This document shows positions 4,838-49,782 of a stretch of 49,782 nucleotides of DNA, in pieces. The notes below the pieces were generated by a model. It worked only from the letters and a program-made list of their open reading frames with translations. It did no database searches and was not told the DNA's origin. A program made the translations under genes and the position numbers. This DNA is from a virus. The DNA is taken from the IMG/VR virus record IMGVR_UViG_3300030329_006014, positions 1 to 49,782 of that record. One strand, given 5' to 3'. Position 1 is the first letter of the stretch; each line of letters opens with the position of its first letter.

Positions 4838-4846
4838 TTTTTAATA

Positions 4847-5535: not shown

Positions 5536-5984
5536 TTATATTTTTTCTTAAACTTTTTACATTTTCCTGTTGATGCGCCCATTTCTCTTTTGCCAAAGAT
5601 TTCTTCGTAATTATCTTTATACTGCTTGCTGGGAGGGGATAGTGTTACAGGCATTCTGTCTTCATCTTTGTAAATTTTTGTTCGTTTTTTTTGCACATGA
5701 TCCTTGTGTCCATTATCTTCAAGCCATTCATAAACGTAAGAGTTTCCATCTTCGTCAACCTTTTTGGGGGTCGATTGGTATTTATTTGCTGTTCTAGGAA
5801 TGTAGCCAATTTCAGCTTGCTTTCTTCTATGCTTGTCTATGCCAGCATCCCCCGTAAGCTTCACTCCTTTCTGCGCTTTTTTATGATGCGGCCTACGCTT
5901 ACCTTTTCCTGCGTCAATAGTACCATCTTTTCTAAGCTTCTTTTTTTTCTCGTGGTAATTTTTATAATCTTTAGACTTGCTCAT
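5532..5984 (-). CDS. basic hypothetical protein (150 aa)
   Basis: Very basic, lysine-rich protein starting MSKSKDYKNYHEKKKK. A strong AAAGGAGG ribosome-binding site precedes ATG 5984, which overlaps the epimerase stop (ATGA). The C-terminal NYEEIFGKRE echoes the ENFDAIFG motif of the next gene, perhaps a shared short module. High charge suggests nucleic-acid binding or a virion-packaged protein, but no family is recognised. Confidence 0.75.
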   Translation of the reverse strand: MSKSKDYKNYHEKKKKLRKDGTIDAGKGKRRPHHKKAQKGVKLTGDAGIDKHRRKQAEIGYIPRTANKYQSTPKKVDEDGNSYVYEWLEDNGHKDHVQKKRTKIYKDEDRMPVTLSPPSKQYKDNYEEIFGKREMGASTGKCKKFKKKYK

Positions 5985-6886
5985 TTCGCCTCCTTTAACC
6001 AATCCTCAAGCCTGACTTTGGGTTTCCACCCCAATAAATTTTTAATTTTATTTGAATCTGCTAACGTACTGCGAGCCTCACCCAGTCTGGGTGAAAGGAA
6101 GATATATTTATTTCCAATCATTTTGGCAATATCCAATACAGAATGATTTCTTCCTGTCCCTACATTGAGTATTTCTCCAAACACATCCTCGTTGTACGTT
6201 TCTGCGGCTAGAATGTTAGCGTTAACCACATCTTTTACATGGGTAAAATCTCTAGTCTGGAGGCCATCTCCCACAATGGTCATATCTTCTCCCGCGTCTC
6301 GCTGTCTTAAAAATATTCCAATTACAGGAGCGTATGAACCTTTTAGGGGCTGCCTTTCTCCGTAGACGTTGAAATATCTAAAAGTAACTGTATTGAGATC
6401 GTATAAATTGTTATACATTTTGCACAAGTCTTCAGCGGCCACCTTGCTTACTGAATAAGGGTTTAAGCAATCCCTATCCATCTCTTCATGCAAGGGTGGT
6501 TCATTTTTCAATCCGTAAGCCGAAGAAGTTGAAGAATATAAAACTCTTTCTACTCCGTGATGACGAGCAAGCTCAAGAATATTTAATGTTCCTATAAAAT
6601 TCACAGAACAAGTATCGAGTGGCTCTTTGATGCTGTAAGGAATCCTTGAACGAGCCGCCAAGTGAAAAACTGTATCTATTTGGTGGTTATTAAAGACATG
6701 TTCTACTTCACTGTAATCAGATATATCATATCCATAATAGGTCGCCTGATTTCTGTAATGATATTTTTCGTTAGCGGCGGAAGATTCGTTATCTACTACC
6801 ACTACGCTCTTACCTCTATCTATAAGCTCATCAACTAAGTGACCACCTATAAATCCGCAACCTCCTGTGACTAAAACATTTTCCAT
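5981..6886 (-). CDS. NAD-dependent sugar-nucleotide epimerase/dehydratase (301 aa)
   Basis: Extended short-chain dehydrogenase/reductase. The N-terminal Rossmann motif is TGGCGFIGGH (residues 7-16). The catalytic site is seen as SSTSSAYG and YSVSKVAAE (the Y-x-x-x-K pair), and NVYGERQ plus QTRDFTHVKDV fit UDP-glucose/GlcNAc 4-epimerases or dTDP-glucose dehydratases. It should interconvert or modify a nucleotide sugar in the host cytoplasm, in line with the several glycosyltransferases in the window. Substrate cannot be decided. Its ATG lies 15 nt from that of a divergent gene. Confidence 0.9.
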   Translation of the reverse strand: MENVLVTGGCGFIGGHLVDELIDRGKSVVVVDNESSAANEKYHYRNQATYYGYDISDYSEVEHVFNNHQIDTVFHLAARSRIPYSIKEPLDTCSVNFIGTLNILELARHHGVERVLYSSTSSAYGLKNEPPLHEEMDRDCLNPYSVSKVAAEDLCKMYNNLYDLNTVTFRYFNVYGERQPLKGSYAPVIGIFLRQRDAGEDMTIVGDGLQTRDFTHVKDVVNANILAAETYNEDVFGEILNVGTGRNHSVLDIAKMIGNKYIFLSPRLGEARSTLADSNKIKNLLGWKPKVRLEDWLKEAK

Positions 6887-8388: not shown

Positions 8389-9029
8389 TTCAATATTTTT
8401 GATTTTATTTTAGACTCTATCTTACTTAAAAACATTATGAATCTTCCAAGTAAATTGTAAGGAATAAGAAAGGCCCAAGCTATAGGAACGAAAAAGTAAT
8501 GAACCGCCTTGTAGAGAATGCTGCTGCTCTTTCTTTGTTCTTGTTCCGTGTATTTTTCTAGCCGTTCTTGTATTCGCTTTCTAGACTCATTATCTCTTCT
8601 TTCAAAATCAAAAAGCTCCAACTCTTTTAGTTCGCCCTTAAATATAATTGCTTTAAAATTAAAAACATAATCAAACTTGCTATCAAGGTTTGTTTTTTCA
8701 TCTCCACAAAATTCTGTTCCGAATATTATTTCTCCAGTAAACTCCTGCTTCTCTATTCCACCGTCTTTTTCTTTTAAAAAAACCTCGCCATTGTCATCTA
8801 CCGCTTGCTCAATAATAGTTTTTTCACTATAAAAATCGCCGTCTTCAGTTATGCTGTAGGAAAGTACGACATCCATATCTATTTCTTGAAAAAAGGAGGA
8901 AGTATAGAAGTCTTGAGTGCTCCAATCTACGCAATCAAAAAAAACCCTTTCATTTTCAGAAAATTTTTCTGATGGTATCGGGAGAGGGTATTCACAAATT
9001 ATTTTATTAATTAGTGGATTCTCGATCAT
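8385..9029 (-). CDS. hypothetical protein with C-terminal membrane anchor (214 aa)
   Basis: The N-terminal part contains DWSTQDFYTSSFF and SYSITEDGDFYSEK, a layout seen in uncharacterised phage proteins. A charged coiled-coil-like helix (about 145-165) is followed by a hydrophobic C-terminal segment (about 172-200, YFFVPIAWAFLIPYNLLG). It overlaps both neighbours by 4 nt, so it is translationally coupled to the sigma factor upstream and the methyltransferase downstream. Function unknown. Confidence 0.75.
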   Translation of the reverse strand: MIENPLINKIICEYPLPIPSEKFSENERVFFDCVDWSTQDFYTSSFFQEIDMDVVLSYSITEDGDFYSEKTIIEQAVDDNGEVFLKEKDGGIEKQEFTGEIIFGTEFCGDEKTNLDSKFDYVFNFKAIIFKGELKELELFDFERRDNESRKRIQERLEKYTEQEQRKSSSILYKAVHYFFVPIAWAFLIPYNLLGRFIMFLSKIESKIKSKILK

Positions 9030-9601
9030 TGTAGGGTATCGTTTTCATACTTAATTAATTTTTGAGCCTTCTTCCTAGCGTAATAAAGCCTCGACATAAC
9101 TGTGCCTATGGAACAATTAAATTTTTTTGACATTTCTTTGTAAGAAAGCTCTTCTACTGCGGAAGAAACTAAAACTTCCCTATGTTTTTGCGGGAGTTTA
9201 TGTAAGATTGCCTTAAGAAGAATATTAAGGTCTTCATTTCTCATATTTTTAAAGCCGTCTCCAAACTCTACTCTTTGATAAGTATACGCGTCAGGAAACT
9301 CTTCCAAGGAATACTCTTTATTTTTTTGTTTTTTCCTATATTGGTCTATAAAAAGATTTCTGCTTATAGAACACGCCCAAGTTTTGAAGTTTGATTTGCC
9401 TCTAAATTTTTTAATATTTTTCCAACACTTTATGTAAGTAATTTGAAGTAACTCTTCAGCCTCAAGTTCGTTGCGGGTTTTGTTTATAATCCAAGAATAA
9501 AGATATTTGTTACTCCTAGAAACAAGCTCTTCGAAAGCTTTTGAGTCGCCCTTCTGAGATTTCTTTATTAAAGATTTTTCTGAAAAGTCTTCGTATTTCA
9601 T
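9026..9601 (-). CDS. ECF-type RNA polymerase sigma factor (191 aa)
   Basis: Two-domain sigma-70 family protein. Region 2 spans about residues 15-95, with AFEELVSRSNKYLY, the AEELLQITYIKCWKNI helix and NFKTWACSISRNLFIDQYR. Region 4 spans about 125-185, with LPQKHREVLVSSAVEELSYKEMS and a helix-turn-helix ending CSIGTVMSRLYYARKKAQ. No region 1.1 or 3 is present, as in ECF factors. It should redirect host RNA polymerase to phage promoters. A TTG 12 nt upstream is an alternative start. There is no clear ribosome-binding site. No anti-sigma gene is evident beside it. Confidence 0.9.
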   Translation of the reverse strand: MKYEDFSEKSLIKKSQKGDSKAFEELVSRSNKYLYSWIINKTRNELEAEELLQITYIKCWKNIKKFRGKSNFKTWACSISRNLFIDQYRKKQKNKEYSLEEFPDAYTYQRVEFGDGFKNMRNEDLNILLKAILHKLPQKHREVLVSSAVEELSYKEMSKKFNCSIGTVMSRLYYARKKAQKLIKYENDTLQ

Positions 9602-9646
9602 TTTGAAGGACAATGTGGCTTTTTTTGCAAAAAAAACAAGAAAAGT

Positions 9647-13365: not shown

Positions 13366-14214
13366 TTACAAAACAGCACGGCCTTTCGCACTCCTCCAGT
13401 CTTTTTCTCTCCTGTCTATGGTATTGTTCCTATGTATTGAAGATTTTATAACGTGAGGACTCACTCCTGCCTTAGTAAATTGATGATCTAGCGCAGACAT
13501 ATCCTTGGGAAAACAAGTACCCCCAAACCCCTTTTTTCCATCTGGCCCCGGAACTAACGTGTGTGACTTATTTATTCTGTCGTCTAAGGTCACCATTTGT
13601 ACTAATTTTTCGTAGTCAATGTCTTTAGCTTCACAAAAACTATGCACCTCATTAAAAAAAGAAACCTTTGTGGCTAAGAAGCAGTTTCTGGTATATTTTG
13701 TTAATTCAGCTTCCTCGGTTGTCGAGAAAAACATTTCTGGTTTATTAATTAACGTTCCATCTCGCCAAGAGTTTTCAAATACAGAATAAAGCTCATTTCT
13801 AAGGCTGTCGTTTCTTTCGTTTGTCCCTAGAATCCAATTTTTTTGACTCACGAAATCTTTTTCCCAATTATCTTCCGTTAAGAACTCAGGCATAAACATA
13901 ACACCAAGTTTCCTGCAAGTTCCAACTGGGACAGTAGATTTTACAATTATTCTTTCAGGGTCATAGCCTGTGTCAATCAATTCTGCGACGACCATTTCCA
14001 CTAAAAGTGTAGAGCAACTTCCATCGTGGTTCATTGGGGTAGGGACACAAACGAAAATAAAATCACACCCATCTATCAAGTCTATCAACTCAAGTCCCCG
14101 AATTGAACACTTTTCAGGTTCTTTATCGTAAATAAGACAGTTGACTGACTTACCCTCCAGCAGCCCTGTGGCTCCCCCAACGTAACCGTTACCGACTATG
14201 CCAATATTGTTCAT
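13366..14214 (-). CDS. UDP-glucose/GDP-mannose dehydrogenase-like protein, short form (282 aa)
   Basis: The N-terminal Rossmann motif is IGIVGNGYVGGATG, and FVCVPTP and VKSTVPVGT match the NAD domain. The central helical domain carries the catalytic cysteine in GFGGTCFPKDM (about residue 240). UDP-sugar dehydrogenases are normally about 390-440 aa; the C-terminal UDP-binding domain is missing here, so the protein may be a natural single-active-site short form or act on another sugar nucleotide. It fits the epimerase and glycosyltransferase genes as part of a glycan pathway. Confidence 0.85.
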   Translation of the reverse strand: MNNIGIVGNGYVGGATGLLEGKSVNCLIYDKEPEKCSIRGLELIDLIDGCDFIFVCVPTPMNHDGSCSTLLVEMVVAELIDTGYDPERIIVKSTVPVGTCRKLGVMFMPEFLTEDNWEKDFVSQKNWILGTNERNDSLRNELYSVFENSWRDGTLINKPEMFFSTTEEAELTKYTRNCFLATKVSFFNEVHSFCEAKDIDYEKLVQMVTLDDRINKSHTLVPGPDGKKGFGGTCFPKDMSALDHQFTKAGVSPHVIKSSIHRNNTIDRREKDWRSAKGRAVL

Positions 14215-35078: not shown

Positions 35079-35642
35079 ATGAGGTTGGATCATATAGCTT
35101 ACAGGGTAAAAGATAGGCGTAAATCTGCTGATTTCTTTTTAAATGCGTTTGGCTATAAGATAGGAACAGAGTTTGAAATAACTTTCGATGATGGATCTAA
35201 AGCGGATTGTTTAGCTCTAACACCTCCAGAGAATAGAGTTGAAGATACAAATTTGTGGCACTTAAAAACTCACTTCTCCCCTAACGAAGTAGAAGTTGAA
35301 AACGCGCTAGAATACCACGCTCCTCCAGAAATTTTTGTTAGCGACGGGACAAAGGGGTCTATCGTTGGAGACTGGGTTGCTGAACGAGGAGGAGTAGGGG
35401 GAGTTCATCATATCGCCTATCAAGTTGAAGATGTGCAACTAGTAATGAATGAGTGGAAAGAAAAAGGGTATGCAGAATTTTATTCCGAGGAACCAATTAC
35501 ATGCAAAGATCCAGATTTAACACAAGTGTTTACGAAACCCTCAGAACTTACAGGAGTAATGTATGAATTCATTAATAGAGAAGGCGCTGGATTTTGTAAA
35601 GACAGCGTTAAGAAACTTATGGAAAGTACAGTCAAACAGTAA
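35079..35642 (+). CDS. VOC-family metalloenzyme, HPPD-like (187 aa)
   Basis: Two beta-alpha-beta modules: RLDHIAYRVKDRRKSADFF at the start and GVGGVHHIAYQVEDVQLVM in the second half, with a likely metal-binding His in each and a final Glu in GVMYEFINREG. The GVHHIAY module and the F-x-x-x-G spacing resemble 4-hydroxyphenylpyruvate dioxygenase but at half its length. It could be a dioxygenase, glyoxalase or isomerase. The product sits before an aldehyde dehydrogenase, suggesting one small-molecule pathway. Confidence 0.75.
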   Translation: MRLDHIAYRVKDRRKSADFFLNAFGYKIGTEFEITFDDGSKADCLALTPPENRVEDTNLWHLKTHFSPNEVEVENALEYHAPPEIFVSDGTKGSIVGDWVAERGGVGGVHHIAYQVEDVQLVMNEWKEKGYAEFYSEEPITCKDPDLTQVFTKPSELTGVMYEFINREGAGFCKDSVKKLMESTVKQ

Positions 35643-35652
35643 ATATCATACC

Positions 35653-37182
35653 ATGCAATTCGAAGGAAGAAATTATATCAACGGCAAGTGGCAAGCCACT
35701 GAAGAAATGTATACCAAACTGAACCCTGCTACTGGAAAAGCTCAAGGAGCGTTCCCGTTAAGTGGCCATATCGAAGTAGAGACAGCGGTAGAATCTGCCC
35801 GTAATACTTTTGATAGATGGAAAAAAGTAAGCCGATTTGTACGTTCAGATTATATGTATAAAGTTGCTCAAATAATTGAGCGACGAAGAGAAGAGTTGGC
35901 CACCGTAATTTCCTTGGAAACGGGAAAAAACTATAATGAATCTATCGCAGAAGTAAATGAGGCTTTACATATGGCTCAATTTGCGTTTGGTTCTGGTAGA
36001 TACTCCCACGGTGAAGCTGTCGCATCCGAAATAGAAGATAAAGATTCTTACATGCTTCGCAAGCCCAAGGGTGTAATAGCTATTATATCACCATTTAATT
36101 TTCCTTTAGCTATCGGGGCGTACTGGTGTGCTGCTCCAGCGATTGTTGAAGGAAACACTGTAATAATTAAGCCTAGCGAAGATGCTCCAATGTCAACACA
36201 AATGGCTGTCGAAATTTATGAGGAAGCTGGTCTGCCTCATGGAGTCGTTAGCTTGGTGCATGGCGACGGTTCTGCTGGTGATATTTTGGCTCGCTCTGAT
36301 ATCGATCATATTTGTTTTACTGGTTCTGCCGAGGTTGGACAGCACATTAGGAAGGTAGCAGCAGAAAGCTGGCACAAAACCACTTCTTGCGAAATGGGCA
36401 GCAAATCAGCCTGTATTATCTTTGATGACGTAGAAGCTAAGCTGGCTCTAGAAGCCGCCATAGCAAGCGCACACAAGCTGTCTGGGCAACGATGTGTTTC
36501 GTCCGGTAGAATGATAGTACAAAGATCTATAGTTGATCAATTTGCTAAAGATTTCACTAAAGCTGCGGCTGATTTGAAAACTGGCAACCCCTTTCAAAAA
36601 GTGGTTAGTACCTCAGGTACGCCTGACGCACTTGGTTGGGTAGATTATGTACCAGACGAAAGCCAAAACTATGGACCGCTAATTAACAAACAAGGATTTG
36701 AAAAGGTTAAAAAATATAATGACATGGTTCTTTCTGACCCAGACGCAGAAGTTTTGCTTGAACCTAAGTATACAGATATAAATGGTAGAGCATTCTTTTC
36801 TTCTTTTATGATTTACAAAACTGAATGGCGCGATGTACCTTACTTAAAGAATGAAGTATTTGGCCCTCACGTTGCTATTATTCCTTTTGACGATCTCGAA
36901 GATGCCATTCGTATCTATAATGATACTGATTACGGGCTTGCGGTTGGTGTACTTACAAATGATTTTAGAAAAGCACGAGTCTTAAGAGACGAATGCGAAG
37001 CAGGAATGATTTATTGGAATGGCGGATCAATTGCAGCAGAATCTCACCTTTCTTTTGGCGGGGTAAAAAAGTCCGGCAACGGATTCCCGAGCGCTGCCAG
37101 AACCTACAGGGCCGTCACGCACGAAGTTAGCTGGACTGTAAACCACGCTGATAAACTAACCTTCCCACAAGGAATGAAATAA
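35653..37182 (+). CDS. aldehyde dehydrogenase (509 aa)
   Basis: Full-length NAD(P)-dependent ALDH. ISPFNFPLAIGAYW and NTVIIKPSED form the cofactor site, DHICFTGSAEVG the Rossmann loop, TSCEMGSKSA holds the general-base Glu (E-L-G-G-K in most relatives), and SGQRCVSSGR holds the catalytic Cys. EVFGPHVAIIPF and SFGGVKKSGNG complete the fold. With the saccharopine-dehydrogenase-like gene 600 bp downstream, an aminoadipate-semialdehyde step of lysine catabolism is one possibility; substrate unproven. ATG 35653 follows the VOC stop by 10 nt. Confidence 0.93.
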   Translation: MQFEGRNYINGKWQATEEMYTKLNPATGKAQGAFPLSGHIEVETAVESARNTFDRWKKVSRFVRSDYMYKVAQIIERRREELATVISLETGKNYNESIAEVNEALHMAQFAFGSGRYSHGEAVASEIEDKDSYMLRKPKGVIAIISPFNFPLAIGAYWCAAPAIVEGNTVIIKPSEDAPMSTQMAVEIYEEAGLPHGVVSLVHGDGSAGDILARSDIDHICFTGSAEVGQHIRKVAAESWHKTTSCEMGSKSACIIFDDVEAKLALEAAIASAHKLSGQRCVSSGRMIVQRSIVDQFAKDFTKAAADLKTGNPFQKVVSTSGTPDALGWVDYVPDESQNYGPLINKQGFEKVKKYNDMVLSDPDAEVLLEPKYTDINGRAFFSSFMIYKTEWRDVPYLKNEVFGPHVAIIPFDDLEDAIRIYNDTDYGLAVGVLTNDFRKARVLRDECEAGMIYWNGGSIAAESHLSFGGVKKSGNGFPSAARTYRAVTHEVSWTVNHADKLTFPQGMK

Positions 37183-37184
37183 TT

Positions 37185-37301
37185 ATGGCTAATAAAGAAA
37201 AAAGAAAAAAAGAAAAAAAGAAACCGTCAAAGCTAACGCCAGCGGAAAAAAGAAAAAAGAAAAGAGAAAAAAAACGAGGAGTAAACAAATATGTCTATTA
37301 A
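37185..37301 (+). CDS. very basic small protein (38 aa)
   Basis: Composed mostly of Lys, Arg and Glu (ANKEKRKKEKKKPSKLTPA), with no hydrophobic core. It starts 2 nt after the aldehyde dehydrogenase and overlaps the next gene by 11 nt, where a GAGGAG ribosome-binding site is embedded. Its main role may be to couple translation. Confidence 0.45.
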   Translation: MANKEKRKKEKKKPSKLTPAEKRKKKREKKRGVNKYVY

Positions 37302-37434
37302 TAAATCCGGATTAGGTTATCAAAAGACTGCTGGCAAAAAAACACGCCAAGGATGCAGCAACAGATCTAAAGGAATGAAGAAATATAAAGGGCAAGGCGG
37401 GCACAGAAAGAGAGTAAAATTACCAAAGAAATGA
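37291..37434 (+). CDS. small basic phage protein (47 aa)
   Basis: Begins MSINKSGLGYQKTAGKKTR and ends with KKYKGQGGHRKRVKLPKK. The K-Y-x-G-Q-G ending on a basic, glycine-containing short protein is familiar from small proteins of large myophages. A GAGGAG ribosome-binding site precedes the ATG. Probably nucleic-acid-binding; function unknown. Overlaps the next gene by 4 nt. Confidence 0.65.
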   Translation: MSINKSGLGYQKTAGKKTRQGCSNRSKGMKKYKGQGGHRKRVKLPKK

Positions 37435-37796
37435 AAATGCCTATATCAGAAGTAGTGGATAGATATACCATCACTAAGTTAAAGTCGGAAAGAACTTCTG
37501 AAGATGTTAGTGAAGAGTTAAATGCTTACAAAGAAGAGATAGATCAATATAACGCTCACGAAATAAATGATTATATTAATAGGCTGTATGATGTTAACGG
37601 TAGACTTTGGGATACAGAAGGAGATATAAGAAGCGGAAAAGATTTACCATTAGAAGAAATAGGAAGGTTAGCTATTAAAGTAAGAGACTTAAACTGCGAA
37701 CGCAATGGAGTTAAAGCTGAAGTGGTTGAAAAATATAGCGAAGGCTTTAAAGAGATAAAAATTAATTACAAGAAAGTAAATTACGGAAAACCATGA
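37431..37796 (+). CDS. DUF6165-like protein (121 aa)
   Basis: ISEVVDRYTITKLKSERTS at the start, then NRLYDVNGRLWDTEGDIR and AIKVRDLNCERNGVKAEVV match the layout of DUF6165-type helical proteins, found in glycan-modification gene clusters of bacteria and in phages. Overlaps both neighbours by 4 nt. Function unknown. Confidence 0.7.
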   Translation: MKMPISEVVDRYTITKLKSERTSEDVSEELNAYKEEIDQYNAHEINDYINRLYDVNGRLWDTEGDIRSGKDLPLEEIGRLAIKVRDLNCERNGVKAEVVEKYSEGFKEIKINYKKVNYGKP

Positions 37797-38908
37797 AAGC
37801 ACTAGTATTAGGAGTAGGGAGAATGGGGAAAGCTATCGCTTATGCGATGGATAAATTCGGCTTTGAAGTCGTGGGTATGGACGCTAACCCAGACGCCGCG
37901 AACAACATGCCAGAAGGCAATAATAATTTTTTTATTGTTGAAAATTCAGAAGAGATTTGCGAGGGTTTAGATGTAGAGATAAAGCCAGATGTGGTTATTA
38001 GCAGCTTGCCCTACCATCAAACAGAAGCCGTAGGCAAATGGTGCATCGATAACGGCGTACGTTATTGCGATTTAGGTGGCAGAGTAGATGTATCGCGTAA
38101 TATAAACGAATACGCGAAAGAAAAAGCCACCAAACCAGTGTTTACCGATTTAGGATTAGCGCCGGGATGGATAAACATAATGGCTGAATGGGCCTACAAG
38201 ACCCTACAACACAACGGCCAAGTCCATAATATAAAAATGATGGTAGGAGGACTACCTTCGCACAGAGTTAACCCCCCCTTAAATTACATCAATACTTGGT
38301 CTATAGATGGATTAATAAATGAATACAAAGACGACTGCACTGTGCTAGAAAATGGTGAAATAAAAGTAGTACCCGCGCTAGATGGGGTACTCCCTATAAA
38401 TGGTGGAGATCAATTTGGCCCCTTGGAGGTTTTTTATACCAGCGGAGGCGCTTCCCACACGATAAAAGAAATGAAAGAGAGGGGCGTTTTAAATTGCGAT
38501 TACAGAACAGTTCGATACCAAGGGCATAGGGATGTAGCAAAGTTCTTGCTAGATAACGTTTCCGCAGATTGCGTGGAAGAAGTTTTCGCTAAGGGGTGTC
38601 AACCAAAATCAGCAGTAATTGATATTGTAATGATGAAAATTTGGTCTAACGCAGGAGAATTGACTTGGGAAAAAAATGCATTAATCGCAGGAGACGAAGA
38701 GAATCAGCCAAACGGCTTTACCGCTATGCAAAAAGCAACGGCATTCCCCATATCCAGTGTCGCCAAAATTATGGCAGAAGGCAAACTTGAAGGGGATCAT
38801 GAGCAGCACAGAGATTATTGGACGCAATACCCAAGCAATCTTTCTTACTCTCACGTGCCTATCAAAGAGTTTAATGAGAATTTGTTAGCCTTAGGGTTAA
38901 CAATATGA
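37793..38908 (+). CDS. saccharopine dehydrogenase-like oxidoreductase (371 aa)
   Basis: N-terminal Rossmann motif ALVLGVGRMGKAIAYAM (residues 3-19), PDVVISSLPYHQT and DLGLAPGWINIMAEW, and the C-terminal catalytic domain (GGLPSHRVNPPLNYI, TWSIDGLINEY) match saccharopine reductase and carboxynorspermidine dehydrogenase. It would make or break a secondary amine between an amino acid and an aldehyde. Next to an aldehyde dehydrogenase this suggests lysine catabolism or polyamine synthesis during infection. Confidence 0.88.
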   Translation: MKALVLGVGRMGKAIAYAMDKFGFEVVGMDANPDAANNMPEGNNNFFIVENSEEICEGLDVEIKPDVVISSLPYHQTEAVGKWCIDNGVRYCDLGGRVDVSRNINEYAKEKATKPVFTDLGLAPGWINIMAEWAYKTLQHNGQVHNIKMMVGGLPSHRVNPPLNYINTWSIDGLINEYKDDCTVLENGEIKVVPALDGVLPINGGDQFGPLEVFYTSGGASHTIKEMKERGVLNCDYRTVRYQGHRDVAKFLLDNVSADCVEEVFAKGCQPKSAVIDIVMMKIWSNAGELTWEKNALIAGDEENQPNGFTAMQKATAFPISSVAKIMAEGKLEGDHEQHRDYWTQYPSNLSYSHVPIKEFNENLLALGLTI

Positions 38909-39703: not shown

Positions 39704-40678
39704 TTGGCTAAAAAAGAAAAAAAAGTATTATCAGCTTCAAGAATAAAAACTTACGAGGATTGCTCTTGGAAATATTGGTGTAATTACCACGAAAAAATTC
39801 CTCAAACCCAAAACGACGGAGCGTGTCGCGGTACAGTTTGCCACACTGTTTTTGAGTACCTTTTGCTACCAAAACATAAGAAATGTTTTGACGCAATCAT
39901 GGAAGCGGGTAATACGAGCGGCAGTCCTGCGGTAGTTAGGCTGTTAAGAATGTTACTTAAAAAAAGCTGCTGCTTCAATGAAGAAAATTTACAAATGTGC
40001 ATAGACATGGTGTACGTTGGGCTTAATGCTGACTTTTTTGGGGAAGGAGGCAAAGCGGATAAGCCTGAAATAAAATTTGTAATTAAAAACAAAGACCCCG
40101 AATACGAGATAATGGGATTCATAGATAAGAAAATAAAATTTAAAGATAAAATTAAAATTGTTGATTATAAATCTAGCAAAAGAAAATTTTCAAAGAAAGA
40201 TTTAGAAGCTAACATGCAAGCAATGACATATACGCTTGCAGCTAAAAGAAAATGGCCTAAATCTGCAAAAAATGTTGAAGTGGAATTTGTTTTCTTAAAA
40301 TTTCCTAACCAACCTCTCCAACAAATCACCATACCAGAAGAGCAACTTAAAGGCTTCGAGCATTACTTAGCTTTTATATATAAGCAATTAAATTCGTTTA
40401 CAAAAGATCAAGCAAAAACTAATTATGCAAAAGACAAAATGGCAACAAAGTTTTTCTGCAAAGCTGGCTCTCACTGGAAATGTCCATATCTAGAACCGTA
40501 TGATTATTACTCTCTTGAGGACGAAGAAGGTAATATCCTCAAAGGAGCCTTTACGAAAGAGGAGCTAGAGCCAGCGGCCACTAACGGAAACAGGGTGGTA
40601 AAGAAAAGGTACGAAGGATGCCCAGCGCATCCCGAAGGGAGCGGAAAAGAGCCAGAAGATCCATGCGATTGGATTTGA
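39704..40678 (+). CDS. RecB/Cas4-like PD-(D/E)XK nuclease (324 aa)
   Basis: N-terminal SASRIKTYEDCSWKYWCNYH is the family's opening motif, with a possible Fe-S cysteine; HTVFEYLLL is motif I; EIMGFIDKKI and IKIVDYKSSKRK are the D and D-x-K of the active site; ANMQAMTYTLAA is the Q-x-x-x-Y motif. Cysteines in FFCKAGSHWKCPYL near the end could complete a 4Fe-4S cluster. It starts at TTG after AGGAGG. Probably a single-strand exonuclease for recombination. Confidence 0.88.
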   Translation: MAKKEKKVLSASRIKTYEDCSWKYWCNYHEKIPQTQNDGACRGTVCHTVFEYLLLPKHKKCFDAIMEAGNTSGSPAVVRLLRMLLKKSCCFNEENLQMCIDMVYVGLNADFFGEGGKADKPEIKFVIKNKDPEYEIMGFIDKKIKFKDKIKIVDYKSSKRKFSKKDLEANMQAMTYTLAAKRKWPKSAKNVEVEFVFLKFPNQPLQQITIPEEQLKGFEHYLAFIYKQLNSFTKDQAKTNYAKDKMATKFFCKAGSHWKCPYLEPYDYYSLEDEEGNILKGAFTKEELEPAATNGNRVVKKRYEGCPAHPEGSGKEPEDPCDWI

Positions 40679-40710: not shown

Positions 40711-41478
40711 ATGAATGAAATTTTGCCTATTTTTAAATCTCATTATAGCATTGGCAAATCAATTTTGACGCTCAGAAACAGCGAATCTACACCCGACGAA
40801 GCAGATTCAATCTTTGATATATGCGCTGAAAATAAACTTAAAGAAGCCACTGTAGTAGATGATAGCATGAGCGGCTTCCTTGAGGCGTACAAAAACTCAA
40901 AAGAGTTAGAGTTAAAATTAATTTTTGGACTAAGAATTACTATATGCAACGAAATGTCTCAAAAAGATTCAGATTCCTTAAAAACGAATAGTAAAATTTT
41001 AATCTTCATGAAGAACGAAGATGGGTACAAAAGGTTAATTAAAATTTTTACGTCAGCGGCGAGAGACGGCTTCTATTATCAACCAAGGACAGACTATAAA
41101 ACCTTAAAAAAATACTGGAGCAACAAAGACCTTGCCTTAGCTGTTCCATTTTACGATTCATACATATTTAATAATTCATTATACGGTTCGGTGTGTGTGC
41201 CAGAGTTTGAATTTTGCTCTCCAACATACTTTCTCGAAGATAATGATCTACCCTTTGATAAAATAATAAGGGACAAGGTTATATATCAATCTAAGAATGA
41301 TAAAGCGGAAATTCAAAGTGTCCAGAGCGTATACTACAAACAAAAGAAAGATTTTAAATCATACTTAACCTTTAGATGTATCAACAACAGAAGCTCCCTA
41401 GACAAGCCAGAGCTAGAACATATGACGAGCGATGAGTTTTGTATTGAAAGCTGGAGAGAAAAAAGTGATAACTCATAA
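40711..41478 (+). CDS. dnaE: DNA polymerase III alpha subunit, N-terminal (PHP) part (255 aa)
   Basis: Matches only the PHP domain of DnaE. FKSHYSIGKSI replaces the usual metal-binding H-x-H start; KLIFGLRITI corresponds to the G-I-K-P-I-x-G-x-E region; KILIFMKNEDGYKRLIKIF and SAARDGFYYQPR are well conserved; HMTSDEFCIESW corresponds to the end of the domain. The metal-binding histidines are mostly lost, so nuclease activity is unlikely. The rest of the polymerase is encoded 3.5 kb downstream. It ends at a true stop, overlapping a nuclease gene. Confidence 0.85.
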   Translation: MNEILPIFKSHYSIGKSILTLRNSESTPDEADSIFDICAENKLKEATVVDDSMSGFLEAYKNSKELELKLIFGLRITICNEMSQKDSDSLKTNSKILIFMKNEDGYKRLIKIFTSAARDGFYYQPRTDYKTLKKYWSNKDLALAVPFYDSYIFNNSLYGSVCVPEFEFCSPTYFLEDNDLPFDKIIRDKVIYQSKNDKAEIQSVQSVYYKQKKDFKSYLTFRCINNRSSLDKPELEHMTSDEFCIESWREKSDNS

Positions 41479-42067
41479 AGACATAATCAGATTCTCCATT
41501 AAGCCATCTACGGCAAATACTTGCATGGAATACGCCAAAGAGTGCAACTTAATAAACTGCGAATCTCAAATAGTCTCCGCAAAAAATAAGCGAAAAAATA
41601 ACATAGAATATCAATTCACCGGACAACTTACAACATTTGTAGCTAGCGAATGGTTCTTTAGAGACGGCGGCAAGACTTATTTTGAGACCAGAGATAAACA
41701 AAATCAGCAAAAATATAAAGGAGACATGGGTATCGATTTACCCCCCTACCCAATTGACGTAAAGGGGGGGAGAATTAGATACCGCTCAAAGGATATTTTA
41801 ACTTATAACCTTTTTGTAAGACCACACGAAAGACATAAATCAAATATTTACATAGCCACTTTAGCTGACTTTACGGACGAATTTGAAAAGTGCAAAGTTT
41901 ATTTAATGGGTTGGATTCCCGAAAGAGATCTCCCCTCAGAATTAAACTATAATTACGACAAAGATAGCTCAAAAAAGGGAACGTTTGCTTTGCAGAATAA
42001 AATGCTAAATCCTCTTCCTAAATTTAACGATACATTTGAAAACAAATTAAAAGCTTTCAGCTTATAA
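41465..42067 (+). CDS. predicted PD-(D/E)XK nuclease inserted in the dnaE split (200 aa)
   Basis: KYKGDMGIDLPPYPIDVKGG (about residues 85-104) gives the D-x(n)-D-x-K pattern of the restriction-endonuclease fold, with a preceding VASEWFF supplying a possible Glu. The remainder is beta-rich. I take GTG 41465 as start because GGAG lies 7 nt before it; an ATG at 41432 lies further inside dnaE. Its place exactly at the break in the polymerase gene recalls intercalating homing endonucleases. Confidence 0.65.
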   Translation: MITHKDIIRFSIKPSTANTCMEYAKECNLINCESQIVSAKNKRKNNIEYQFTGQLTTFVASEWFFRDGGKTYFETRDKQNQQKYKGDMGIDLPPYPIDVKGGRIRYRSKDILTYNLFVRPHERHKSNIYIATLADFTDEFEKCKVYLMGWIPERDLPSELNYNYDKDSSKKGTFALQNKMLNPLPKFNDTFENKLKAFSL

Positions 42068-42068
42068 A

Positions 42069-42749
42069 ATGGAAAACATATCTCTAGTAACTTTAGCCAC
42101 GGACAACTTACCCTACAAGGAAGCAACGGTGTCTAATAAAAAATCTTACTGCGAAAAACATAATTATAATTTTGTTCTTTTTTCTGAATCTTTAGATGAA
42201 GATAGACCCGCTCCTTGGGGTAAAATAAAAGCCCTACAAAAAACCCTAGATGACGTTTCCACGCATTGGGCCGTCTGGATTGATGCAGACGCCTTCATAA
42301 TGAATGACGAAATTAAATTGGAATCAATTATAGATGATGAGTACGATCTTATTATAGCTGTAGACTGCTTTACTATAAACACGGGGGTTTTTCTCTTAAA
42401 AAATACAAAAAATTCAAAACATTTCCTTAAAGAGGTTTACGAAAAAAACTGGGCGATCAATCACCCTTGGTGGGAGCAAGCAGCTATCATAGAATATATA
42501 AATGAACCAAACTCACTAAAAGTTAAAACAATTACCCAAAAAGATATAAACGCTTACCCCCCTATAGCTAGAGAAAGCGTGTCAGAAAAACAACAGTGGA
42601 CCCGAACAAGAAACGAATTGTTTTTTTACAACAAAGAGAGAGCGGACAAAGGGATTTACGAGCAAGGAGATTTCATTCTCCATTTTGCTGGCTTTAATTC
42701 TCAGGAAGAAAAAATGAAAAATATAAATGAATACATAGACAATGGATGA
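42069..42749 (+). CDS. GT34-type glycosyltransferase, copy 1 (226 aa)
   Basis: HWAVWIDADAFIMNDEIKL holds the metal-binding D-x-D, TINTGVFLLKN the acceptor-side motif, PWWEQAAIIEY and GDFILHFAGF the C-terminal motifs of galactosyl/xylosyl-transferase family 34 (GMA12/MNN10). Starts 1 nt after the nuclease. The next gene is a related copy. Acceptor unknown. Confidence 0.85.
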   Translation: MENISLVTLATDNLPYKEATVSNKKSYCEKHNYNFVLFSESLDEDRPAPWGKIKALQKTLDDVSTHWAVWIDADAFIMNDEIKLESIIDDEYDLIIAVDCFTINTGVFLLKNTKNSKHFLKEVYEKNWAINHPWWEQAAIIEYINEPNSLKVKTITQKDINAYPPIARESVSEKQQWTRTRNELFFYNKERADKGIYEQGDFILHFAGFNSQEEKMKNINEYIDNG

Positions 42750-43461
42750 GTACGGTTTAAATATTGCTGATGCGAAAGGCAAGAGCATAAGCGTTATCTC
42801 TTTTGCTACGGAAAACGTGTGGGATTGGGCGGAAGAAATTTTTGAAAATAATAAAGAATATTGTGAAAAACACGACTACTCTTGGAAAGGCTTTAGAGAT
42901 TTAAAAGACAAAAGCAGACCTACTAATTGGAGTAAGATTGCGTACATCCTAGAAGAAATGGAAAACGATTGCGATTGGATATTTTGGATAGACGCTGACG
43001 CAATCATAATGAATCATTCTATAAAATTAGAAGAATTTATAAATGACGATTATGATTTCGTAGTTACCCATAGTCCATGCGGTTGGTGTACGGGTACTTG
43101 GCTTATAAATAATAATATTTATTCCAGAAAACTTTTAGAGTATACTTACTCCAAGGAAGAGTTTATCGATCACCCCTCTGGAGTACAGGTTGATTCAGCG
43201 TTTTATAATGCGGCTTACGAAAAAGGTTCAAGGACAATAGTCTTAGAGCAAACAAAATTAAATTCTTTTCCTCATTACAAATATTACAGAAATTTTGGAG
43301 AGTTTACAACGAAAGCTGGGGTTTTTAATTTTAAAAGCACCTACGAAGATTACAAAAAATTATCCTTCAAAGATGGAGACTTTATACTTCATCTAGCTGG
43401 ATTTAATAACAAAGGAAGAAAAAGTATTTATAACAACTACAAAGAAAGGATTGTAAAATAA
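42742..43461 (+). CDS. GT34-type glycosyltransferase, copy 2 (239 aa)
   Basis: Paralogue of the preceding gene: WIFWIDADAIIMNHSIKL, HSPCGWCTGTWLINN, HPSGVQVDSAFYNA and GDFILHLAGFNN occupy matching places. The acceptor-side segment differs (CGWCTGTW in place of INTGVF), so donor or acceptor may differ. Overlaps the neighbours by 8 nt and 1 nt. Confidence 0.83.
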   Translation: MDEYGLNIADAKGKSISVISFATENVWDWAEEIFENNKEYCEKHDYSWKGFRDLKDKSRPTNWSKIAYILEEMENDCDWIFWIDADAIIMNHSIKLEEFINDDYDFVVTHSPCGWCTGTWLINNNIYSRKLLEYTYSKEEFIDHPSGVQVDSAFYNAAYEKGSRTIVLEQTKLNSFPHYKYYRNFGEFTTKAGVFNFKSTYEDYKKLSFKDGDFILHLAGFNNKGRKSIYNNYKERIVK

Positions 43462-44099
43462 TGGATGAACAATTTTTAAGATTTGATAAAGATAAAGAAT
43501 ATGTTTTTATCGACTGCGAAACTCTCAACTTATGCCTTAACAGTTGTCATAATTTGCCTTGGCAAATTGCCATGTTAAAAGTTGTAGGTGATAAAAAAAT
43601 CGCAGAAAAGAACTTTTATATTAAATGGGACACAAAACTACAGATTAGCGCAGACGCAGCAAGGATAACTCGCTTTAACCCCAAGGTGTTAGAAAAAAGA
43701 GGCTTAACCCCAGAAGAAGTATTTCCAACCATGGAAGACTGGCTGGATAACGCAGACTATATAGTGGGTCATAATATATTAGGGTTCGACTTATATTTAA
43801 TAAAAGACTATTACAAGTATATGGGGAAAGAGTATAGGCATTTAGTAAATAAAATCATAGACACAAATTGTATAGCCAGAGGAATTAAGTATGATGTTCA
43901 CTATAAGATAGGGCAAGATTTAACTGAATACCAATACAGGATGTTACACGAGAGAAGGAAGGGTATAAAAACAAACCTAACCCATATGGGGAAAGAGTTT
44001 GAGATAAATCACGACTACAGTAAACTCCACGATGCAATCGTTGATCTTGAGCTTAACCTTAAAGTTTGGAATAAATTAAAATGGCAGATAGAACTGTAA
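43461..44099 (+). CDS. DnaQ-like 3'-5' exonuclease (212 aa)
   Basis: DEDDh fold: YVFIDCETLN (Exo I, D and E), ADYIVGHNILGFDLYL (Exo II, D) and KLHDAIVDLELNLK (Exo III, H-D). This is the proofreading-type exonuclease (epsilon) expected with a DnaE polymerase, and it is encoded within the split polymerase region. It shares its first base with the stop codon of the gene before it. Confidence 0.88.
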   Translation: MDEQFLRFDKDKEYVFIDCETLNLCLNSCHNLPWQIAMLKVVGDKKIAEKNFYIKWDTKLQISADAARITRFNPKVLEKRGLTPEEVFPTMEDWLDNADYIVGHNILGFDLYLIKDYYKYMGKEYRHLVNKIIDTNCIARGIKYDVHYKIGQDLTEYQYRMLHERRKGIKTNLTHMGKEFEINHDYSKLHDAIVDLELNLKVWNKLKWQIEL

Positions 44100-44971
44100 T
44101 TAATAAAGTAGACGACGGGTTCTACCACATTTGGTCTCCTTCTTGTTTTTGGGGGGATCAAATGTTCAACTTAATGGCGGCTAAACAATTAGCTAAAGGT
44201 AAAGACGTAGTAATCCATACAGCTAAAGAGGCTTGGACCGGGCACACTAAAGAATGGTTTCCTATGGATCGAAATATATTTAAATTTTGGTCAACAGTCA
44301 ATTTTATAAAAGGTATTATCTTTGACGTTAGTCAAAAAAAACCAATAGACAAGGGTCGCAAAGAAAGCAGATACCACGTTGGAATGACTTTGGCTAGTGG
44401 CTCAGAGCTTTTGGGTAATACGTTCGTTCACGACATAAGTAAAGACATAGACTTTTCTTCTTTCTCCAAGTTTAGTCATCCTTATCGCGCTGATAATCAT
44501 AAAATAGCCGTGTTTCAACCAATATCTATCTTGCATAGAGCAAAAAATGATATACAATCAGAGTATATAAGCCCTTGGGATAAAAGCGTAGAAGCCCTGC
44601 TTGAACAAGGATATGAAGTGGTGGCTATAGGTAGTGAGAAAGACGAAAAAGACATGGAAGAGTACTATCCAAACCTGTTAAAAAAATACCCTATCACAAA
44701 CCTACTAGGAAAAACTAATATATTTGAGTCAATCGACCTAATCATGAACCACGCTTCGTTTGTTTTGTCTTGCGATAGCTGGTCAGCTTGGTACGGTATA
44801 GCGTCTAGAAAAAAAACGGCAGTTTCTGCGGGAAAAACATACAGGAACGGCGATGAAGAAAATATTTATATAGAGGCGCTAGGAAACAAAGATGTTTATA
44901 AACTTGATTACGCCTACAACAAAGAGAACTGTGACCTTAACTTAGCAAAATGGATAACGGAAAATGCCTGA
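44081..44971 (+). CDS. GT-B glycosyltransferase, GT9-like (296 aa)
   Basis: HIWSPSCFWGDQMFNLMAA at the start, then VVAIGSEKDEKDMEEYY and LLGKTNIFESIDLIMNHA, and FVLSCDSWSAWYGIASRKK, where GT9 heptosyltransferases have the sugar-nucleotide site. Overlaps the exonuclease and the polymerase core gene. Donor and acceptor unknown. Confidence 0.75.
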   Translation: MADRTVINKVDDGFYHIWSPSCFWGDQMFNLMAAKQLAKGKDVVIHTAKEAWTGHTKEWFPMDRNIFKFWSTVNFIKGIIFDVSQKKPIDKGRKESRYHVGMTLASGSELLGNTFVHDISKDIDFSSFSKFSHPYRADNHKIAVFQPISILHRAKNDIQSEYISPWDKSVEALLEQGYEVVAIGSEKDEKDMEEYYPNLLKKYPITNLLGKTNIFESIDLIMNHASFVLSCDSWSAWYGIASRKKTAVSAGKTYRNGDEENIYIEALGNKDVYKLDYAYNKENCDLNLAKWITENA

Positions 44972-47519
44972 TTTTACAGACCAATTTAAAGAACTAGATA
45001 TCCCCCTGCATGGTGTGCGATTGCCATCTTTCGAAATTAATAACAAATACAAAAGATCTCTTGGCGTAAGCGAGGATATTGATAACGAAAACTTTTTAAA
45101 AGCTTTGTGCGAAAACGGTAAAGAAAAAGTATGGAAAGATGTTAGTGAAGAAAGAAAAAATGAGTACTCCGAAAGACTTGAGCATGAGCTTAAGACAATT
45201 AAAGAGCTTGGATTTATTGATTACCTTCTTTTAGTATGGGATGTAATTAACTACTGCAAAGAAAGCAACATTCCAACTGGACTTGGTCGTGGCAGCGCAG
45301 CAGGAAGTTTGGTTTTATATTTTATTGGAGTAACCAAGATAGACCCTATTGAGCACGGGCTTTATTTTGAAAGATTTATATCAAAAATCAGAGCTAAAAA
45401 AACCATAATAAATGACATAACATATTTAGACGGCTCATTGATGATGGATGTAGACCTTGACATCTGTTACTACAATCGTCAGAAAGTTATTGAATACCTT
45501 GAAGAAAAGTTTAAAGGTAAAACCTCAAAAATAATTACCTTAAACACATTAAGCGGAAAACTATGCATTAAGGAATGCGGAAAAGTAGCGGCCAATAAAA
45601 GCGAGCAAGAAATGAATAAAGTTTCTTCTCTTATTCCAAAGGTTTTTGGCCAAATTAAGGACATTAAAGAGGCTTACGCCGAGCAGGATGAGTTTAAAAA
45701 ATGGTGTGATGAAAATGAAGAAGCTTACAATATATCACTAAAGATCAAAGGGCTGATAAAAAATAAAGGGGTACATCCTTCCGCAATTTCTTTGTCGTTC
45801 GATAAGCTAAACGATTGTTGTCCAACGGAATTAACCTCAGATAAAAAGAGTCACGTTGCTTCGTATGACATGAATTGGATATCAATTTTTAATGTTAAAC
45901 TTGATATTCTTGGTCTACGCGCCGTTTCAGTCGTGGATGATGTATGCAAAAGCGTTGGTATTGATATTACTGATGTAAACTTAAAAGATCAACTTATCTA
46001 CGATAATCTTCAATACCTCAGAACACCTCATGGCTTGTTCCAAATTGAAGCTGAAACGAATTATCGTGTCTGTCAGAAAGTTAAACCCAAGAATTTGGAA
46101 GAACTAAGCGCCGTATTAGCCTTGGCTCGTCCGGGGGCGCTTAATTTTGTGGATCAATACGCGGCCTACGTAGAGGACGGAACCTATGATCCAATCCACC
46201 CATTTTTTGACGACATTCTAACATCAACAGGCGGCGTAGCCTTATACCAAGAGCAGCTAATGAAAATGGCTAACAAGATTGGCTTTACTCTTGATGAAGC
46301 GGAAATCTTAAGGCGTATTGTAGGAAAGAAAAAGGTAAAAGAAGTTCGCAAGTGGAAAAGGAAAATTAAAAATAAAATTAAGGAAAACAATCTTGAATCA
46401 GAAATTGGAGATATTCTATGGAGAGTATTAGAAGATTCTGCTAATTATTCTTTTAATAAATCTCACTCTATTTCATACGCCGCCTTAGCTGCTACAACTA
46501 TTTATTTAAAATTTAAGTATCCCCAACAATTCTTTTTAAGCTTGTTGAAAATGACCAGACATGAGCCAGACCCAATTAGTGAAATATCTAAAATTCAAAG
46601 AGAAATGTCTCATTTTGATATAAAACTTTTACCCCCTCATATTATTAAATCTGATATGGATTTTAAAGTAGAGGGTAAAGATATTAGATTTGGTCTTTTA
46701 TCCATAAAAGGAATATCAGATAAATCAATTGAAAAACTGAACAATTTTAAAGATAATTACTCTAATAAATTCGAAGTTTTTGAAGGAGCAAAGGAATCAG
46801 GTCTTACGATTGGCATACTATCAGCACTAATTCAAGCTGGCACATTCGAGGGATTCTCGGTGTCCAGAAGCAAAGTTGTTTATGAAGCTCAACTTTGGAA
46901 CATCTTAACTAAAAAAGAAAAAAAATCTGCCATGCTGCTGGCTGAGTCGCAAAAGTACGATTTAGTTGAAATAGTCAAAAAATTAAAAGAAAAAAAAGAC
47001 GAAAAAGGAAAGCCAATAATAAGAGATACAAGGCTAAACACAATTAAAACAAAATCAGAACCATATAAACAAATTTATTTTAAAAATAAATATTCAGAAA
47101 CTTTTGCAAACTGGTATTACGAAAAACATCTTCTCGGCTATACATACAATATGCCTTTGAAGGATATTTTCAGAGAAAAAAAGGACAACCTTTTATCATT
47201 GAGGGAAGTGGAAGATTCCGAAGTTGACGACAGGGTATCTTTTGTGGGCACTGTAGAGGATAAGCCGTATTTCGGAACATCTAGAAACGGAAACGACTAC
47301 ATGAGAATGTTCGTAGAAGATGAAACGGGTAGTATGAAAGTGATGATCTTTTCCAAGAGACTTGAAAACAGCGTTACCTCAAATAATGGCTCTCCGCCAG
47401 AAGAAAATAACATTGTTATCGTTAACGGAGTCAAAAAGGATGAAGTTGTTTTTGCGGATAAAATAGCAATTCAATCAAACAAAATATACACAAAACTATC
47501 AGAGCTAAAAAATAGTTGA
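44964..47519 (+). CDS. dnaE: DNA polymerase III alpha subunit, catalytic part (851 aa)
   Basis: Begins where the PHP domain ends in normal DnaE (LHGVRLPSFEI). Palm: LGRGSAAGSLVLYFIGVTKI (near residue 107) and MMDVDLDICYYNRQ with the two catalytic aspartates (near 161); KLDILGLRAVSVVDDV supplies the third. VALYQEQLMKMA and SHSISYAALA mark the thumb/fingers, a helix-hairpin region follows, and VDDRVSFVGTVEDKPYF starts the C-terminal OB fold. Together with the N-terminal part the two chains total 1106 aa, normal for DnaE. There is no intein signature at either junction. Confidence 0.95.
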   Translation: MPDFTDQFKELDIPLHGVRLPSFEINNKYKRSLGVSEDIDNENFLKALCENGKEKVWKDVSEERKNEYSERLEHELKTIKELGFIDYLLLVWDVINYCKESNIPTGLGRGSAAGSLVLYFIGVTKIDPIEHGLYFERFISKIRAKKTIINDITYLDGSLMMDVDLDICYYNRQKVIEYLEEKFKGKTSKIITLNTLSGKLCIKECGKVAANKSEQEMNKVSSLIPKVFGQIKDIKEAYAEQDEFKKWCDENEEAYNISLKIKGLIKNKGVHPSAISLSFDKLNDCCPTELTSDKKSHVASYDMNWISIFNVKLDILGLRAVSVVDDVCKSVGIDITDVNLKDQLIYDNLQYLRTPHGLFQIEAETNYRVCQKVKPKNLEELSAVLALARPGALNFVDQYAAYVEDGTYDPIHPFFDDILTSTGGVALYQEQLMKMANKIGFTLDEAEILRRIVGKKKVKEVRKWKRKIKNKIKENNLESEIGDILWRVLEDSANYSFNKSHSISYAALAATTIYLKFKYPQQFFLSLLKMTRHEPDPISEISKIQREMSHFDIKLLPPHIIKSDMDFKVEGKDIRFGLLSIKGISDKSIEKLNNFKDNYSNKFEVFEGAKESGLTIGILSALIQAGTFEGFSVSRSKVVYEAQLWNILTKKEKKSAMLLAESQKYDLVEIVKKLKEKKDEKGKPIIRDTRLNTIKTKSEPYKQIYFKNKYSETFANWYYEKHLLGYTYNMPLKDIFREKKDNLLSLREVEDSEVDDRVSFVGTVEDKPYFGTSRNGNDYMRMFVEDETGSMKVMIFSKRLENSVTSNNGSPPEENNIVIVNGVKKDEVVFADKIAIQSNKIYTKLSELKNS

Positions 47520-49054: not shown

Positions 49055-49237
49055 TATTTTATATTTTATTCTTCTATCTAATATAAATCCTTCTTCGAAT
49101 AAATAATTAATAATATCTATAACTTCATACTCTTTCGCGTCAGGCTTTAACACAATTAGATTATTTTTAGTCCAATTATCCTCATCAACATCAAGAACAA
49201 TAGGTACTTTATTAACTATTAAATCTATCTGTTTCAT
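49049..49237 (-). CDS. hypothetical protein (62 aa)
   Basis: Begins MKQIDLIVNKVPIVLDVDE, with alternating strands and a helix (EVIDIINYLFEEGFILD): a small alpha/beta protein. Its start base is shared with the stop of the threonine-repeat gene upstream. No family recognised. Confidence 0.65.
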   Translation of the reverse strand: MKQIDLIVNKVPIVLDVDEDNWTKNNLIVLKPDAKEYEVIDIINYLFEEGFILDRRIKYKIV

Positions 49238-49782
49238 TATGTTCCACAGTCATTGCAATGGCCGCCTGTTTTGTATGCGAAAATCGACCCATTTGCAGTC
49301 CGGTTTGAAGGTAGTGATTGATTAATGTTCGTAACTTTTATAGCAAAACTTCCTCCGCCACAACCATTAACACAAGCAAAGTCGCCTACGCTAATTCCGG
49401 TTACTCCAGCATCAAGACAGTAATATTCGTCTGGGTCGGTAGTAAAATCGTTATCACCTCCACCCAGTACACATTTTTTGGCTTCAATATAAGCTCCTTC
49501 ATCAGCCCAACCACAACACTCAACTTCGAAAGTCGTCGTTGTTGACTGGGGTGGCGCTGTAGTAGTTGTGGGTCCGCTAGTGGTAGTAGTTTGGCAAGGA
49601 TTGCACGGGCATTCGCAATCAGTTCCGTTGAACATCATAAAAGCTGCGCCCGAAAAAGGAGCGCAAGTTGTCGTGGTAGTAGTCGTCGTCGTGGTAGTAG
49701 TCGTAGTCGTGGTAGTAGTCGTCGTCGTGGTAGTAGTCGTCGTCGTGGTAGTAGTCGTCGTCGTGGTAGTAGTCGTCGTCGT
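49237..49782 (-). CDS. Thr-repeat, Cys-rich protein, 5' part outside the window (at least 181 aa)
   Basis: The frame is open to the right edge. From the edge inward it reads a pure threonine run of about 38 residues, then CAPFSGAAF, a CECPCNPCQ cysteine cluster, two shorter threonine runs (TTTTSGPTTTT and STTTT) and a compact C-terminal domain with CCGWADEGAYIEAKKC and GGHCNDCGT. Thr-runs separated by Cys modules recall mucin-like linkers of virion surface or tail proteins; O-glycosylation is conceivable given the nearby glycosyltransferases. An internal ATG at 49638 is unlikely to be the true start. Confidence 0.75.
   Translation of the reverse strand, partial: TTTTTTTTTTTTTTTTTTTTTTTTTTTTTTTTTTTTTTTCAPFSGAAFMMFNGTDCECPCNPCQTTTTSGPTTTTAPPQSTTTTFEVECCGWADEGAYIEAKKCVLGGGDNDFTTDPDEYYCLDAGVTGISVGDFACVNGCGGGSFAIKVTNINQSLPSNRTANGSIFAYKTGGHCNDCGT
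49669..49782. repeat. 18-nt tandem repeat encoding poly-threonine
   Basis: Unit GTGGTAGTAGTCGTCGTC (plus strand) repeats about six times up to the window edge, with one changed position in an early copy. On the minus strand it reads only Thr codons (ACG, ACT, ACC), keeping the frame. Confidence 0.9.

Follow-up and report, generated by a model that had tools for sequence, protein, structure and literature searches.

A DNA polymerase III alpha subunit encoded as separate PHP and palm genes, with a DnaQ-like exonuclease gene between them, in uncultivated aquatic phages

Family C replicative polymerases are usually regarded as a single chain carrying both the PHP and the palm domains. How such a polymerase comes to be encoded in two pieces, and what the pieces do, is the question raised by the IMG/VR virus record IMGVR_UViG_3300030329_006014, a stretch of 49,782 nt (hereafter the window, to which coordinates refer unless a locus is named). 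In this stretch dnaE, the gene for DNA polymerase III (Pol III) alpha, is present as two open reading frames (ORFs), one for a PHP chain (40711-41478) and, beyond five intervening genes, one for a palm-to-OB chain (44964-47519). In the reading that we consider probable, the split would be an old fission, the PHP, DnaQ and palm chains would reassemble into one enzyme, and the joints between their genes would host later guests, many of them homing-type nucleases.

Organization of the split locus

All genes of the locus are encoded on the plus strand. The PHP chain (255 aa) matched Pfam PHP (1.8e-12) and covered positions 62-292 of PHROG 405 (length 1190), and the palm-thumb-fingers-HHH-OB chain (851 aa) covered positions 317-1082 of the same family, with Pfam matches to the Pol III alpha NTPase (5.5e-60), finger (4e-32), and HHH (9.6e-15) domains. 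Because these PHROG matches follow one another, the two chains represent successive portions of one protein; both also matched successive portions of Pol III alpha structures in the PDB. The break corresponds to the linker between PHP and palm, part of which is absent in comparison with other phage PHP domains. A split at a domain joint, as proposed in a preliminary description of this DNA, is thus borne out by the ORFs and their matches.

The genes between the halves encode an orphan protein considered a probable PD-(D/E)XK nuclease (41465-42067), a GT34-like glycosyltransferase (42069-42749; Pfam PF05637, 4.1e-23), its GT34-like paralogue (42742-43461; PF05637, 3.9e-18), a DnaQ-like DEDDh 3'-5' exonuclease (43461-44099; Pfam RNase_T, 7.7e-14; PHROG 192), and a GT9-like (GT-B) glycosyltransferase (44081-44971; Pfam PF01075, 8.4e-07). 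The glycosyltransferases and DnaQ had been correctly named in the preliminary description, which had counted DnaQ among the cargo; it is a core member of the operon, present in 156 of the 156 loci described below. Neither GT34 gene was found in other relatives, and the GT9-like gene at the DnaQ-palm joint was common only to the window and locus L005 (64% identity).

Distribution of the split across relatives

A search of IMG/VR with the palm chain yielded 80 loci at 64-100% amino acid identity. Six further loci at 49-53% identity were found in genome contigs, probably viral contigs in metagenome bins, and a scan with one of these six yielded 80 loci of a second clade. The two clades carrying the split are only about 50% identical to each other. 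In every locus in which PHP, DnaQ, and palm were all found (156/156, a count that includes near-copies and is not the number of independent events), PHP and palm were separate ORFs with DnaQ between them. Loci lacking a PHP match have little upstream sequence, and the PHP gene was present wherever upstream sequence sufficed. The carriers of the split are a large group of uncultivated aquatic phages.

The minimal layout is an overlapping operon of PHP, DnaQ, and palm, and 34 of the 156 loci contained no cargo at either joint. Start and stop codons overlapped or lay no more than 10 nt apart in 71 of 72 empty PHP-DnaQ joints and in 83 of 84 empty DnaQ-palm joints. Since the three ORFs touch or overlap where guests are missing, they are probably translationally coupled.

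Intact relatives, for which the preliminary description had proposed a search, were detected, but proteins with PHP and palm fused came no closer to the window than about 27-30% identity; they were also found when such proteins served as queries. A megablast of the 12-kb region against phages returned no near record. A tblastn of the palm chain against phages returned 1283 records, all below 60% identity, and those inspected encode PHP in one ORF with palm or, in the case of Rossellomorea phage phiT1, show a break within the polymerase. In a 67-row tree the PHP-DnaQ-palm group formed a single clade with support of 100 and a long stem, and on a 162-row tree the split/fused character required one change; both trees were quick, with long branches, and their outgroup relationships are unsure. 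These results are consistent with an old, stable fission of Pol III alpha that appears to have had one origin, before the two clades parted.

The joints as insertion sites

What varies among relatives is the content of the joints. The PHP-DnaQ joint was empty in 72 loci and otherwise held genes with a PD-(D/E)XK motif (19 loci), IMPDH/GMP reductase (16), SET (14), cupin (12), an unknown family (12), or others (11). At least 37 state changes were counted for this slot on the 162-row tree, with 29 between empty and occupied, and pairs of loci whose palm genes reach 94.6% identity differed by a guest located after the stop codon of PHP and before the start codon of DnaQ. The DnaQ-palm joint was likewise variable, with glycosyltransferases, a carbamoyltransferase, nuclease-like genes, and, in 53 loci, a small acidic protein of 66-109 aa (e.g. 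L013:2055-2270). Furthermore, a PD-(D/E)XK-like domain, recognized by motif, was found in frame at the N-terminus of two palm chains (L120:4251-5000 and L160:216-720). Both joints are insertion hot spots, with gain and loss of metabolic cargo and of small PD-(D/E)XK-like nucleases that fall into about eight families.

The nuclease motif was present in 9 of 20 gap families and in 8 of 112 flanking families (Fisher p 8e-5). The pattern was written after the gap proteins had been viewed, and false positives occur (e.g. the PfkB kinase of L016), so that the enrichment serves only as supporting evidence. Family C32 in L065 matched Pfam PDDEXK_5 (1.7e-07); apart from this case and family C7, which was assigned by fold, the slot nuclease families were identified by motif. 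The profile match between C7 and C9 was weak (probability 11%).

Family C7 was found in 64 loci. Among the 39 copies at 63% identity or above, 37 occupied the replicase slot, one was cut by a contig end, and one lay elsewhere. Copies at 41-50% were located between helicase-primase and PolA, beside a class II ribonucleotide reductase (RNR), or after a clamp loader. The residues E, D, and DxK were invariant, and the AlphaFold2 (AF2) model had a predicted local distance difference test (pLDDT) score of 82. Foldseek ranked NhoI/Eco15I first (6e-06) and DpnI next; PvuII and the homing enzyme I-Ssp6803I matched weakly. By residues, model, and structural matches C7 has the E ... D ... DxK arrangement in the common fold of PD-(D/E)XK enzymes. 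In unrelated phages it adjoins genes for polymerase, RNR, or a clamp loader, a placement like that of homing endonucleases. Nuclease genes that vary in class, a PD-(D/E)XK case among them, have been described at fixed places next to genes for polymerase and RNR (Barth et al. 2023, PMC10448857).

The window carries an orphan where its closest relatives (85-88%) carry C7. The preliminary description had this gene overlapping PHP, which holds; the overlap is 14 nt from the probable start, GTG 41465 behind GGAGAG (200 aa), in place of 47 nt from ATG 41432 (211 aa). The sequence at ATG 41432 encodes, in another frame, the conserved end of PHP, and this accounts for similar MSFVxKAG starts in relatives. 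The D-x(n)-D-x-K motif noticed earlier is present as GIDLPPYPIDVKGG, and on this motif the orphan is a putative PD-(D/E)XK nuclease; the D ... DVK residues are present, and the helix Glu is, by eye, apparently Gln. Family and fold gave no further backing: the 211-aa form had no above-threshold match in Pfam and none among the families of NCBIfam, PHROG, or PADLOC, and the single-sequence AlphaFold model was uninformative (pLDDT 34). A pattern scan, tblastn, and profile comparison revealed no homologue outside the same phage, and no profile match to C7 was obtained.

Many of the small nuclease-like slot genes, that of the window included, may be free-standing homing-type endonucleases that exploit conserved replicase genes and would have arrived later than the split. 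Alternatively, they could be working phage genes for host DNA breakdown, repair, or the exclusion of rivals, placed in the replication operon for timing, an explanation that deserves consideration even though we hold it to be rather unlikely. C7 genes keep one position within each phage group, as vertically retained functional genes would, the best solved folds for C7 are the restriction enzymes NhoI and Eco15I, and two palm chains bear a nuclease-like domain fused in frame. However, the same slots hold now one, now another of about eight sequence families and close relatives have none, the neighbors of C7 in other phages are the usual homing targets, and the same unstable nuclease content was reported by Barth et al. 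2023 (PMC10448857).

Active sites and the proposed three-chain enzyme

Across 151 full-length PHP chains, eight of the nine canonical metal ligands (HHDHEH[C/H]DH) were replaced and only D/E was kept; four of the chains retained His at one of the replaced positions. The nine-residue metal site of an active PHP exonuclease is therefore lacking. In the palm chain, GRGSAAG and the catalytic Asp residues of DxDxD and KxDILGLR were invariant in the 156 loci, and the features of a family C polymerase of the DnaE type were present (NTPase/palm with GRGS and three catalytic Asp, finger, and HHH) except that PHP was not in the same polypeptide in any of the 156 loci. The DnaQ residues D18, E20, D110, H190, and D195 were invariant in 35 sequences, giving the DxE, D, and HxAxxD signature of a DnaQ/epsilon DEDDh exonuclease.

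In bacteria DnaQ usually makes up for an inactive PHP (PMC12926913), and PHP is a docking site of epsilon (PMC3919608). On these grounds we infer a working enzyme composed of a dead PHP scaffold, DnaQ, and the palm chain. The three chains should work together, assembling non-covalently into one enzyme in which the PHP chain would retain a structural and exonuclease-docking role, as in E. coli Pol III, and proofreading would be performed by DnaQ. Such a natural three-gene version would allow the role of an inactive PHP to be tested directly by adding or omitting one protein.

The loss of the PHP metal ligands, together with a mean conservation of 61% for the PHP chain and 72% for DnaQ, could also mean that the PHP chain has left the polymerase and either serves a different role as a free protein or persists as a vestige. 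We regard this as improbable, since the PHP chain occurs in every locus with enough upstream sequence, always beside DnaQ and palm, and has 42 invariant columns in an alignment of 39 diverse members.

Several points tell against the reading of an old fission with reassembling chains and later, homing-type guests. The association of the chains is deduced, with structure models that cover single chains only, and the PHP chain could have a different partner. The orphan of the window has no usable fold model. Homing is suggested by position, by pairs of empty and occupied sites, and by turnover, and the cupin, GMP reductase, SET, and glycosyltransferase guests are not nucleases, so that the slot accepts other cargo as well.

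Origin of the split

DnaQ is the only gene always found between the halves. In the simplest history dnaQ inserted into dnaE at the joint, or dnaE broke first and then received dnaQ; either would have happened once, before the two clades parted. The preliminary description had proposed instead that the PD-(D/E)XK nuclease of the window broke an intact dnaE at the joint, after which cargo including DnaQ accumulated. The nuclease gene does abut the PHP gene in the window, and the suspicion that nucleases belong at this joint was well placed, since nuclease-like genes recur at the PHP-DnaQ joint. This nuclease as the cause is very hard to maintain: it is unique to its phage, as are the GT34 genes, and all 156 relatives share the two-gene layout, an outcome which the preliminary description itself had named as telling against its proposal. 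Relatives without any nuclease are also split, many of them without cargo, and DnaQ is in all loci and better conserved than PHP.

Among 80 distant contigs, four (L239, L241, L244, and L254) had separate PHP and palm ORFs. In L241 the two genes touch, and in L239 four small ORFs lie between them, one for a calcineurin-like phosphoesterase. In L244, an unrelated phage contig, an HNH-like ORF (4603-5013; motif only, without Pfam support) lies within the gap, and this independent split is the nearest match to the nuclease scenario. L254 was set aside as a possible frameshift. Furthermore, in the isolate Bacillus phage vB_BpsS-140 (MH884512; L318:3851-7458) PHP and palm are separate overlapping ORFs in a region for which the record lists no coding sequence. 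Parsimony on the 67-row tree required four split/fused changes, of which strongly supported branches force two. The PHP/palm joint has thus broken independently in other phages, vB_BpsS-140 among them, and is naturally breakable, with DnaQ present or not.

That the split is an artefact (a frameshift, a misassembly, or a trans-spliced split-intein gene) has next to no probability: L254 looks like a possible frameshift and L093 has a split-intein-like break, though elsewhere in the gene, but the recurrence of one layout in 156 loci led us to reject assembly error, and inspection of the sequences revealed intein halves neither where PHP ends nor where palm begins, so that a split intein acting in trans at this joint was rejected.

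In L093 (8974-11958) the palm chain is broken by an apparent split intein (NYSFNK|CMSLDT... and ...VTSN|SHSISY; Pfam intein splicing, 2.4e-04), which presumably lies close to the cyanobacterial DnaE intein site without coinciding with it.

A more specific history can be offered tentatively. An exonuclease gene may have entered dnaE at the PHP/palm joint once, creating a three-chain enzyme, a PolC in trans, whose gene order mirrors its assembly, with a dead PHP as adaptor between exonuclease and palm; the permissive joints might then have sheltered a succession of homing nucleases, with some of these becoming fused to the polymerase chain. The operon offers a series of empty and occupied sites among close relatives for the study of nuclease and cargo entry into essential phage operons.

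Other genes of the window

A Cas4/PD-(D/E)XK-type exonuclease gene (39704-40678, plus strand; Pfam PDDEXK_1, 6.2e-18; PHROG 69 exonuclease) lies directly 5' of the PHP gene, in most relatives as well as in the window. The window phage is rich in sugar enzymes; a GDP-mannose dehydratase/epimerase-like gene (5981-6886) and a UDP-glucose dehydrogenase-like gene (13366-14214) were found on the minus strand. At 35563-38908 an aldehyde dehydrogenase gene (1.3e-119) lies near a saccharopine dehydrogenase-like gene (4.5e-22), a possible auxiliary metabolic pair for lysine or polyamines. Minus-strand genes also encode a Sigma-70/ECF-type sigma factor (9026-9613; Pfam 5.1e-16) and a protein with Thr/Pro-rich repeats, TTTTSGPTTTTAPP (49237-49638).

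Comparison with known systems

The literature search, with subscription papers and preprints outside its reach, found a different split of phage Pol III alpha (PMC7824862) and no PHP-palm split with DnaQ between. In that case, the group 2.2 jumbo phages, the phage family C polymerase is likewise made as two proteins thought to reassemble. The break there is inside the polymerase, separating NTP-binding from Mg/DNA-binding parts; the genes are far apart, other Pol III domains are absent, and those phages have a family B polymerase too. Here, in contrast, the break lies between PHP and palm, the palm chain is intact, and the genes form one operon with DnaQ between. Cyanobacterial split-intein DnaE is also encoded in two genes, but the joint described here has no intein sequence and trans-splicing is not expected.

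The HEG (homing endonuclease gene) islands of Barth et al. 2023 (PMC10448857) are the best known parallel for the guests: nucleases adjoin polymerase and RNR genes, and one position holds different classes among relatives, including a PD-(D/E)XK replacement. The present slots differ in that their nucleases are almost all PD-(D/E)XK-like, metabolic cargo is also present, and homing activity is putative.

The bacterial Pol III core (alpha and epsilon) and PolC resemble the proposed enzyme in that PHP, palm, and a DEDDh exonuclease cooperate. Bacterial PHP and palm share one chain, and in PolC the exonuclease lies inside that chain, whereas here the three are separate genes in the order PHP-DnaQ-palm.

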